A stretch of DNA of 64,000 bases from contig RQSC01000062.1 in assembly GCA_013416795.1 (NCBI GenBank), positions 78,448 through 142,447 of the forward strand. Direction: 5' to 3'. This document shows positions 43,077 through 49,556 of this stretch, piece by piece. The first letter of the stretch is position 1. Each line of letters starts with the position of its first letter. Source of the DNA: Prasinococcaceae sp. CCMP 1430 (Eukaryota; Prasinodermophyta; Palmophyllophyceae; Prasinococcales; Prasinococcaceae). A program made the translations under genes and the position numbers. Under the pieces are notes generated by a model that was not told the origin of the DNA, did no database searches, and saw only the letters and a program-made list of their open reading frames with translations.

Positions 43077-44684
43077 CTACTCTGAGCCTGGCTCCCCCGC
43101 GACAAGTTCTGGCGGCAGCTCGAGCTCCTCTTGCTCCACATTGTCTGCAAGCGCTTGCCGCTGCTCGGCCTCGCGCGCGGCTTCCACTTTCTGCACGACC
43201 TCGGGTGGCGCTTTGGCGAGCGTTGCAGCCGCGATGGTGTCCTCGGTAATGGCCTCGAGTAGGGCCTCATCCCCGCGCAATGCCTCAACGCAATTGTCCT
43301 TGCCCTGCCCGATGTTGGTGCCCTGGTAGGCGTACCACGCGCCCTTGCGCTGAACGACGCTATTCTCTACGGCGGCCTGCAGAACAGATCCGACCGAGTC
43401 GATGCCACGGTCGAAAAGGATGTCCAGCTCGGCGACGCGATATGGGAAAGCCACCTTGTTCTTGGCTGCGGACACAATAGAGTTGCGCGATGATGAGTTG
43501 CGCGGGGTGTGCGAGGGTCAGCGCCGGGCGCCGAGCGCAAGACGGCGTCTTGACGTGTGGCATTCGCACGTTCCACACGCGCAGCGCTCCTGTAGACAAA
43601 GCAATAATCATCGGGCACACGCGCATCGCTTCGCGCACGCGCACGCACCGATCTTGACGCGAACCCTGATACCCGGCGAGGTTGAGTCCCTCGCTGCTCC
43701 CGTGCCCCCACCCTCGCCCCTGATGACCTCCGTGCGTCTGATGTCCATGCGCACGCTCGCGTAGAATTTGAGCGCGTTGCCGCCCGTCGTGACCTCAGGA
43801 TTGCCGTAGATGACGCCCACCTTTTGCCTGAGCTGGTTGAGGAAAATGATGGTGCAATCTGCCTTGTACGCGTTCGAGGCGATTTTGCGCAGCGCCTGGC
43901 TCATGAGGCGCGCGTGTGCGCCGACCTGAAAGAGGCCGATCTCGCCTTCGATCTCTGCGCGCGGCGTGAGCGCGGCGACCGAGTCCACCACGATCAGGTC
44001 GACAGCGGAGGAGCGCGCCAACTGGTCGACCACCTCGAGCGCCATTTCACCGCTCTCCGGTTGGCACACGACCAGGTCAGAGATGTCAAGTCCGCACGTC
44101 TCCGCCCATGCTGGGTCGAACGCGTGCTCGGCGTCGATGAACGCGACCGTCTGATTCTCATCCTGCGCAGCGGCGAGGCAGTTCAGCGCGAGCGTCGTCT
44201 TGCCGCTCGACTCGGGGCCGTAGAGTTCAACGACTGTCGCAAGGCGGTGCATCTGCGGTCAGCGGCGGCGGCGGCGGGGGATGTTGAGATATCGGCGCGC
44301 TGAGGCGCGTGGCGCTCGAGCGGGCGGTGCGCGGGCGGCGAGCTCACGGCACGTACTTCTTCCCCGCGGCAGCCCGCCGCCGAGCGCAAGGTCGAGGTTC
44401 AGCGCCCCGGTCGATGTCGTCCGCACCGACGCGGCGGCGGCCGCCTCATCCATCACCATGATGGATCCCTTGCCGTAGGCCCCTTCTATTTCGCTCAGCA
44501 CCTTGTTCAGCGCCGCCTTGCGCCCGTCTGTGGCGCCGGCGCCCCCCTTGGCCTTGGCGGCGCACGCGGGCTGCGCGCGCTGCGCGCGCCGCGAGAGGCC
44601 CAAGGAACGCCACGCGGGCTGCGCCGGCGGGCGCGCGCGCGCTGTGGCACACGGCGGCGTCGCCTCGTCGGCGCACCCGGAAAA
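43077..44684 (-). CDS. recA: RecA recombinase, bacterial type, probably organellar
   Basis: Three exons: about 44684-44357 (AGA A|GTACGT), 44233-43649 (after GCGACAG; ATC G|GTGCGT) and 43465-43077 (after TGTCCGCAG). Spliced, they give [42 protein letters not shown] (Walker A across the first junction), [22 protein letters not shown] (Walker B), [40 protein letters not shown] and [22 protein letters not shown] across the second junction. This is a complete bacterial-type RecA core rather than eukaryotic Rad51, as in plastid or mitochondrial RecA of plants and algae. The upstream Ala/Arg-rich stretch would be a transit peptide. No in-frame ATG is found there, so the start or a first exon is unresolved. 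Role: homologous recombination repair of organellar DNA. The C-terminal extension is acidic. Confidence 0.92.
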
Positions 44685-45342
44685 AATCCCGCGCGGGCGC
44701 GGGCGCCCGGGTGCGTTTTGACCAGTTTTTCGATGTAGGGTCTGTCTAGTCGATTTGTGGTATGCGAATGAATATTGTTTTGTCACGCCCCAGACGGTCT
44801 GAGGTTGGGGGGTAGTCGATACCCAAACACACACGCGGCACTCTACAGGCGGAGCACGAGATGCGAAATTCGGGCGCGTGCGTCGGTGCAGTGGCGGCTC
44901 CGTGCCTGCCGACCGAGCGTTTAAATCTGAACGAACCCTCACGGTGATTCAGATTTGGCGCGCGCTGGCCGCGGGCCGGGGGCGTCCAGCGCTGCAGGCT
45001 GGGTCGTTGCTCCAGTCTCGAGAGGCGGGAGCGCAATCTGGGATCCGGCGGGCCTTGGCAGAATATCTCCTGTGCACACGCACGCTGGCTGTTGGCCATG
45101 GCATAAGCACGCCACACGGCACTCGCTGCTCGTTGCCACTGCCCCCCCCTTCCCCTCCCTGCTCCTCACACTCCCCCGCGCACGCCTTCCCTCGAACGGC
45201 CGTCCGCCCGCCCGCCCGGTGCGCGCGAGCTGCGGGGTCTGAATCGCGGCGGGGCCGGGGCGGCGCCGCGCGGCGCCTACGGGGGCAATCGGGTTTCGGG
45301 GCGGCGGCGAGTGCGGCGCACGCAGGCGGCCGCGTCGATTCC

Positions 45343-46146
45343 CCCCCGGGGGAGAGCGCGGCCGCGCACGCCGAGAAGGACTCGGAGGTCGTGCAGGCGT
45401 CGGCACTCGAGTGGCTGCTCGCGGTGGCAGGCGTCGACAAGCGCGCCGTCCCCGCCGGGACTACGTTCGAGGACGCCATCGACAACGGGAAGCTGCTGCA
45501 CCACGCCTCGTCGGTCGTGCTCGACCGCCTGTACAAGAGGAAGCCCGCCGGCCCGCTGAGGTCAAACGTTGACTTTCTCAGGCCCACGAACTCGTCGTTC
45601 TGGGAAAATCGCGCCGCCTTCGCCGATGTCGAGGCGTTCCTCACCACCGCGGTGAGCATCGGCGTTTCGAGCGAAGACCTGTGCACGGCAGCGGACATCA
45701 TGGAACACAAGGATCCGCGCAGGGTGGCTTTGACGGTGCTGGCACTGTACCAGGCGGCCGTTCGGAAGGGTGTCGGCGGCCTGCCGAGGTTTGCGGGTGA
45801 GCGTGGCGACATGTCCACCCAGCACATCGAGAACATGCGCGACCGTATTTGGAGGGTGAACTCTGATCTGAACAACGGCACCGACATGCAGGATGAGAAC
45901 AAGCACAAGGGTGGCGCGGGCAGGTGGCTGCGAAGAGCGCTGGTTGTGCTGACAGCGGGCGGGCTGGGGGCGGCCGGGTGGTCGAAGTGTCGCCCCCTCG
46001 ACATTAAAGAGGGTGACACTCTGTGGGAATTGGCGCAGCGGCACCTCGGCGAGGGGAAACGGTACCAGAGGTTCCTCGACAAAAACCCGGAGCTCATCGC
46101 GCACCCCGATCTCATTTTCCCTGGCGATCGCGTTCGCCAGGTGTGA
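45343..46146 (+). CDS. Calponin-homology + transmembrane + LysM protein
   Basis: The coding frame is clear from about 45343 to TGA 46146 and stays open further upstream, but without an ATG, so a 5' exon is missing. Domain order: first a single CH-like domain (~110 residues) with ALEWLLAVAGVDKRAVPAGT, FEDAIDNGKLLHHASSVVL, SFWENRAAFADVEAFLTTAV and SSEDLCTAADIMEHKDPRRV (the helix typical of calponin-type CH domains), then a charged linker, then one hydrophobic segment (WLRRALVVLTAGGLGAAGW), then a C-terminal LysM domain: DIKEGDTLWELAQRHLGEGK, RYQRFLDKNPELIAHPDLIF and PGDRV. CH domains bind actin or microtubules, and LysM binds N-acetylglucosamine polymers. With one TM between them, the protein would face cytoplasm and exterior (or a lumen). 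I know no described family with this order. Confidence 0.8.
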   Translation, partial: PPGESAAAHAEKDSEVVQASALEWLLAVAGVDKRAVPAGTTFEDAIDNGKLLHHASSVVLDRLYKRKPAGPLRSNVDFLRPTNSSFWENRAAFADVEAFLTTAVSIGVSSEDLCTAADIMEHKDPRRVALTVLALYQAAVRKGVGGLPRFAGERGDMSTQHIENMRDRIWRVNSDLNNGTDMQDENKHKGGAGRWLRRALVVLTAGGLGAAGWSKCRPLDIKEGDTLWELAQRHLGEGKRYQRFLDKNPELIAHPDLIFPGDRVRQV

Positions 46147-48603: not shown

Positions 48604-49556
48604 CCGCGCGCGCCGCGCGGCCGGGGGCGTCGCGCGTCGCGGTGGGCCAGATGACCGCGACCAACGACGCCGAGGCCAACTTCGCAACGTGCTCCGACCT
48701 TGCCGCGCGCGCCGCGGCCGCAGGGGCGAGCCTGTTGTGCCTGCCCGAGTGCTTCGCCTTCATAGGCGCGCGCTCGGGCGAGGCGCAGGCGATGGCCGAG
48801 CCGCTCGACGGGCCGCTCATGTCGCGCTACGCAGAGCTCGCGAGGAGCACCGGGCTCTGGCTGTCCCTCGGCGGCTTCCAGGAGGCGCCCACCAAACCCG
48901 ACCCCGAAGGGCGCATCTACAACACGCACGTCGTGCTCAGCCCCGACGGCGGCACGCGCGGCGCGTACCGCAAGATTCACCTCTTCGACGCGCCGTTCGT
49001 GAGCCTCGTGGAGAGCAAGCAGGCGCTCCCAGGTGAGGAGCTCGTGGCAGTGGACTCGCCCGTCGGACGGCTGGGGCTCAGCGTCTGTTATGACGTGCGC
49101 TTTCCAGAGCTGTATCAGGCGCTCAAGTTCGGCATGGGATGCGACGTGCTGCTCGTGCCCGCCGCGTTCACCGTGCCGACGGGCCAGGCGCACTGGGAGC
49201 TGCTGCTCCGAGCGCGCGCCGTTGAGAACCAGGCGTACGTCATCGCCGCCGCGCAGGCGGGCATGCACAACGAGGACGGCAACAGGCGCACGAGCTACGG
49301 CCATGCCATGATCATCGACCCGTGGGGTGAGGTGGTCGCCAAGCTCGACGACCCCGTCGGCACCGGCATCGCCGTCGCCGACATCGACGTGGCGGGCCGC
49401 CTCGAGGAGCTCGAGCAAAAGATGCCCCTCGCGGTTCACAGGAAGTACGACATTTACGGCGGCGTGAGCGGCAGCGAGAAAGCCAGGGAAGCCGCCGCGA
49501 TGCTGGACGCGTACAAGAACAATGTCGACCAGGCGACGCTTGAGCTCAACGGCTGA
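48604..49556 (+). CDS. Nitrilase-family amidase, NIT1-like (deaminated glutathione amidase), 5' end in gap
   Basis: The frame runs from the gap to TGA 49556, with about 300 residues of recognisable protein starting RVAVGQMTATNDAEANFATC. Carbon-nitrogen hydrolase catalytic residues are all visible: Glu in LLCLPECFAFIG, Lys in GAYRKIHLFDAP and Cys in LGLSVCYDVRFPELYQAL. The RFPELY... block, VPAAFTVPTGQAHWELLLRA, ARAVENQAYVIAAAQAG and SYGHAMIIDPWGEVVA are diagnostic of the Nit1/NitFhit branch. NIT1 removes the amide from deaminated glutathione, a metabolite-repair reaction in cytosol and mitochondria. The start codon is missing, hidden in the gap. The C-terminal extension (KAREAAAMLDAYKNNVDQA) is slightly longer than usual. 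It converges with the DnaJ gene with only 40 bases between stops. Confidence 0.92.

Follow-up and report, generated by a model that had tools for sequence, protein, structure and literature searches.

In a 64,000-nucleotide stretch of contig RQSC01000062.1 from the alga Prasinococcaceae sp. CCMP 1430 (hereafter the window, with positions counted from its first letter), one gene encodes a protein in which a divergent calponin-homology (CH) domain, a short hydrophobic segment, and a LysM domain follow one another. That this architecture is real we regard as very likely. Full-text literature searches found no published description of a CH–LysM pair, and as far as they reach, both domains are known but their joining through an anchor is undescribed. 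We propose tentatively, at a probability of roughly 0.38, that the protein is a linker of the chloroplast outer envelope, with its CH domain in the cytosol on actin and its LysM domain on plastid peptidoglycan, coupling the plastid to the cytoskeleton. The features that the argument uses are the following.

44861..44885, plus strand: candidate short first exon, starting at ATG 44861 (lists of ATG, GT, and AG positions, paired by eye)
AG 45310-45311 and AG 45324-45325, plus strand: candidate acceptors of the coding exon (splice-site list)
45313..46146, plus strand: coding exon of the CH–segment–LysM protein, stop included, 5′ border approximate (open frame, codon-usage rise)
45376..45795, plus strand: CH domain, GAS2/CH3-like (PDB sequence matches, AlphaFold2 model, Foldseek and VIA)
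45718..45720, plus strand: Arg codon opposite R144 of GAS2, which touches F-actin; motif HKDPR, for which GAS2 has HKQPR (sequence alignments, PMC12084551)
45781..45852, plus strand: post-CH block LPRFAGERG...RDRIW, largely common to the relative P0003 (alignment with P0003)
45937..45981, plus strand: short hydrophobic segment ALVVLTAGGLGAAGW, a possible membrane anchor with basic residues on both sides (hydropathy, alignment with the P0003 segment)
46003..46134, plus strand: LysM domain (Pfam PF01476, residues 221-264 of the frame counted from 45343; PDB match to the TsaP LysM, E 4.7e-5)

One Gene Encodes the CH Domain, the Hydrophobic Segment, and the LysM Domain

The three parts belong to a single nuclear gene. 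An open-frame scan of the window found no interruption of the plus-strand frame between 44803 and its stop codon at 46146, so the frame and coordinates given by the initial annotation of this DNA are correct. Codon usage, scored against eight open frames of this genome (5,238 codons), favors this frame over the other two plus-strand frames from about 45313-45343 to the stop; a reverse frame equals or exceeds it in a few scoring windows within the gene (e.g., at 45553), and upstream of 45313 just two scoring windows, near 44893-44983, are weakly positive (scores 2.0 and 1.0). No in-frame ATG was found between 44803 and the CH part, and the 5′ end therefore lies in another exon, as the initial annotation had supposed. 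A first exon at 44861..44885 would be a speculative candidate, being in frame (by eye) through GT 44878 with AG 45310-45311 or through GT 44886 with AG 45324-45325. The CH and LysM parts form one gene rather than two, because the order CH, segment, LysM recurs in two further sequence clusters, P0002 (99% identical) and P0003 (50% identical).

These were the only two clusters with the architecture in a survey of 5.8 billion proteins by a method that requires shared 5-residue words, and the rarity noted at the outset holds within that survey. More distant relatives may be missed, because of this word requirement and because the candidates scored were limited: two of the searches scored only ~8,000 candidates sharing most words. 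A search with the CH part alone in the same 5.8 billion proteins gave no further relatives (2 of 622 candidates). Seven extra proteins (E 0.02-0.44) were rejected, all being Pfam LysM proteins that cover only 12-13% of the query, as was a second match in the genome, on contig C85, where similarity is limited to the LysM domain and the stretch preceding it in a different long protein. The first 62 residues of P0003 align poorly and resemble an intron read through, which would place an intron inside the P0003 CH domain. The start Met of P0002 was rejected as start-codon evidence: its aligned codon is GCG, and gene calling may have translated a GTG as Met.

A Divergent CH Domain Related to GAS2-CH3

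The CH domain is divergent and GAS2/CH3-like. The Pfam CH model PF00307 matched neither the window protein, its CH piece, P0002, nor P0003, and no NCBIfam CH model matched the window protein; in the Pfam scan of the 267-residue frame LysM was the sole match, with no enzyme domain and no GAR domain, the mark of the GAS2 family. In a phmmer search of the PDB with the CH piece, however, all four matches at E <= 10 are CH domains: GAS2 (CH3) at 7e-4, transgelin at 0.046, calponin-2 at 1.1, and calponin-1 at 1.6. The reversed CH piece, searched as a control, had no matches. Two PaaC chains matched by the whole window protein (E 0.54 and 0.58), which are neither CH nor LysM, and the EnrR repressor matched by the family profile (E 0.22) were taken as chance. 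With a modest AlphaFold2 model of the domain, structure comparison (Foldseek and VIA) ranked the GAS2-CH3/F-actin structure first and agreed with the CH fold. The whole-protein model, built from a three-sequence alignment, was poor (predicted local distance difference test score, pLDDT, of 41) and was left out of the fold search. The initial annotation had named HMMER as a check on both domains: the LysM domain passed its Pfam cut-off, whereas the CH domain, missed by Pfam, is upheld by PDB sequence and fold comparison.

Among seven other CH domains of the same genome, phmmer ranked L024, a single CH domain that Pfam recognizes, first both for the window protein and for its relative. By BLASTP against these seven, the best E of the window CH domain was no better than 2.0, and P0003 matched L024 at E 0.003. 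Searched against the PDB, whole P0003 gave no CH match, and its CH piece matched GAS2 first (E 1.1) and an unrelated protein next (E 1.5).

Actin binding by the CH domain is plausible, read across from mammalian GAS2-CH3 (PDB 9kbx), which is its best match in sequence and fold and, like it, a single CH domain with the HKxPR Arg. The genome itself encodes actin-family genes and one frame with four CH domains, presumably fimbrin-like. The single GAS2-CH3 domain is reported to bind F-actin through named contact residues, and mutation of Y22, F108, E133, or R144, or removal of the N-terminus, to lower its affinity (PMC12084551). The Arg matching R144 is kept in the window protein and its relative, as HKDPR and HTDPR (GAS2 numbered by eye). 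T129 and E133 are replaced in the window protein by Glu and Thr, F108 is aligned to Ala beside a conserved Phe, and the N-terminal contacts and the N-terminal hook lie beyond the alignment. These losses count, given the lowered affinity of the GAS2 mutants. A description of the CH domain as cytoskeleton-binding is drawn from the F-actin binding of its closest relative. GAS2 further differs in having a GAR domain, reported to bind microtubules (PMC12084551), and in having neither a transmembrane (TM) segment nor LysM.

A Possible Membrane Anchor and a C-Terminal LysM Domain

The 15-residue segment of the window protein is weak and by itself insufficient for a TM helix call. The anchor reading rests on P0003, because the aligned segment there is plainly hydrophobic: it is the most hydrophobic stretch of P0003 (19-residue Kyte-Doolittle mean 2.08), with a strongly basic RKASRRR directly after it. 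Where the initial annotation drew a single TM helix, the hydrophobicity is clear only in the relative and faint in the window protein. One rule for outer-envelope targeting, devised for signal-anchored proteins (PMC4010795), asks for a single weakly hydrophobic TM segment with at least three basic residues behind it; here the segment means are about 0.0 and 0.23 on the octanol scale, and basic residues are present. We infer membrane insertion, the identity of the membrane, and topology.

The LysM domain was found where it had been placed, at the C-terminus, by Pfam PF01476 (E 4.2e-5), whose cut-off of 20.9 bits it passes with 23.8; P0003 scores 22.5 bits and P0002 23.5 bits. Its closest PDB matches are the LysM of TsaP (3jc8), which is the best, and another LysM protein (6ve2); Kbp, named as a potassium-binding protein, is also among its PDB relatives. 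TsaP and the 6ve2 protein are bacterial wall-associated pilus proteins, and TsaP differs from the window protein in architecture. LysM domains usually bind cell wall of the bacterial kind, and this one would be predicted to bind a glycan.

Peptidoglycan Machinery in the Genome

The assembly comprises 24.5 Mb and contains 22 light-harvesting matches; the window has ~68% GC. A Mur ligase search gave two loci, MurD above the NCBIfam cut-off and MurC at 315 bits, just below the cut-off of 335. Four matches to the penicillin-binding protein (PBP) transpeptidase fall at three loci: a class A PBP on contig C112; a second class A PBP on C73, in two pieces that an intron probably separates; and a third PBP on AT-rich DNA whose neighbors psbC, psaB, psaA, and chlB (read by eye) identify it as plastid DNA. 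LysM matches number 17, at about 12 separate loci; besides that of the window, L004, L006, L008, L009, and L012 were scanned with Pfam, and the others were viewed as frames only. A LysM protein with an SLT (transglycosylase) domain just above cut-off is also encoded. The chitin-synthase family PF03142, the sole such family searched and one with bacterial controls only, had no match in the genome.

Prasinoderma coloniale is reported to have the full core set of ten peptidoglycan enzymes (PMC7455551), which bears on this genome if the alga is that species or kin, and ftsI and ftsW are reported from some prasinococcalean plastid genomes (PMC4194372). DipM, a LysM protein of plastid peptidoglycan, is reported from the intermembrane space in a glaucophyte, and a 2014 survey lists DipM-like LysM-M23 proteins in a glaucophyte, a moss, two charophytes, and Selaginella (PMC4015805). 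DipM, as described for glaucophyte and moss chloroplasts, shares with the window protein a LysM domain and a nuclear gene, and is believed to work on plastid peptidoglycan (PMC4015805); it differs in being an M23 hydrolase without CH, whereas the window protein showed no enzyme domain in the Pfam scan.

Several further loci were noted. L006 (G000:C73:516514-516993) combines LysM2 with peptidase M23 and is DipM-like by Pfam; against the NCBIfam DipM models its M23 part scores under cut-off. In L008 (G000:C43:184394) and L009 (C73:518514), LysM was identified by Pfam, and hydrophobic stretches adjoin it (by eye). The plastid PBP region (L039/L042, G000:C136 ~256500-266600) lies within a 476,838-base contig, on which ycf66 matches at two places, one with an internal stop; the assembly may here contain copies of plastid DNA that are joined or repeated.

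Neighboring Genes

Divergent from the CH–LysM gene and adjoining it is a bacterial-type RecA gene on the minus strand (43608-44258 and 44259-44720; the first piece has a Pfam E of 7e-80). Read by eye, a GT-AG intron of ~120 bases separates GLPRGR from the next coding piece. The RecA is probably organellar. A carbon-nitrogen hydrolase (nitrilase-type) gene lies on the plus strand at 48639-49556 (Pfam E 3e-57).

Discussion

A tether between cytoskeleton and glycan, as initially suggested, is the most natural reading of this architecture, and the cell surface is not its best-supported location. In the layout that we propose, the C-terminal anchor would sit in the outer membrane of the plastid with the tail beyond it. 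There, between the two membranes of the envelope, LysM would grip the peptidoglycan. The CH domain would remain cytosolic and touch actin filaments, coupling the position, shape, or division of the plastid to the cytoskeleton. Given a C-terminal anchor and a tail of ~54 residues, mostly LysM, the simplest way to place LysM on the peptidoglycan keeps CH in the cytosol, and the outer envelope is favored over the cell surface because the genome carries chloroplast peptidoglycan machinery.

A number of observations weigh against this proposal. Soluble and cytosolic proteins, too, can carry LysM domains. Foldseek gave no match at E <= 0.001 and listed the first unrelated structures at rank 5, the family profile was not significant when compared with seven other CH domains from this genome (column-shuffled decoys scored as high in 16 of 200 cases), and only R144 of the four aligned GAS2 actin contacts is clearly kept. 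The window segment has a lower Kyte-Doolittle mean than two helices of the CH domain and is unfavorable on the Hessa scale, and chloroplast tail-anchored proteins follow no trend in hydrophobicity or tail charge (PMC4010795). The N-terminus lies outside the known exon and could hold a transit or signal peptide. The Mur ligase search gave only its two loci, with neither MurE nor MurF seen there.

Of the alternatives, a tether at the cell surface would have the same domain order, with the anchor in the plasma membrane, LysM on a wall glycan containing N-acetylglucosamine, and CH holding cortical actin. The walls of P. coloniale are described as thick, with main components not known (PMC7455551), which applies if this alga is P. 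coloniale. The same source reports that species to have very few genes related to chitosan. A scale- or wall-bearing surface, as first envisaged, finds no match to PF03142, the one chitin-synthase family searched, whereas peptidoglycan genes and LysM-bearing hydrolases are present; the weak anchor with trailing basic residues is unlike most anchors directed to the endoplasmic reticulum (PMC4010795), and no signal peptide is seen in the frame, which lacks its 5′ exon. We consider this location unlikely. Equally unlikely is a membrane protein whose LysM faces the cytosol or stroma without a wall glycan, LysM and CH both serving as protein-interaction modules. The RKASRRR that follows the P0003 segment would allow the C-terminal side to be cytosolic or stromal, and Kbp is among the LysM relatives, but the basic residues stand on both sides of the segment and the best PDB matches, 3jc8 and 6ve2, are wall-associated.

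Slightly less probable again is a soluble protein whose segment is no anchor. The shortness of the segment and its hydropathy on both scales speak for this, but in P0003 the aligned segment is the most hydrophobic stretch of the protein, and basic residues flank it in both proteins. Two genes, or an assembly artifact, can be set aside as very improbable: the 5′ exon is missing from the frame, but that frame is uninterrupted and preferred to the other plus-strand frames in nearly all scoring windows, and the domain order recurs in two other clusters, one only 50% identical.

An outer-envelope linker would resemble known proteins in part. CHUP1 is an actin-associated protein of the chloroplast outer envelope with an N-terminal anchor; it would likewise join the outer envelope to actin, and it is not known to have the CH–LysM architecture. 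PDV1 and PDV2, listed as tail-anchored outer-envelope proteins (PMC4010795), are reported to span the outer envelope and recruit cytosolic DRP5B and are described as land-plant specific (PMC4164004). They share with the proposed layout a cytosolic N-terminal part and one outer-envelope TM segment, a comparison of predicted layout alone, and carry other domains on both sides.

It is not settled why some chloroplasts of the green lineage retain peptidoglycan, or how a host governs an organelle with a wall. In a less likely, bolder reading, an early green-plant lineage would have joined a eukaryotic cytoskeletal domain, by way of an envelope anchor, to a domain that binds peptidoglycan, and so would tie host actin directly and mechanically to the cyanobacterial wall that still surrounds its chloroplast. 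Whatever its location, the pairing of CH, membrane segment, and LysM was not found described in our literature searches; if the proposal is true, a host cytoskeletal domain joined to a wall-binding domain would be a concrete, testable link in a genome that carries peptidoglycan genes.
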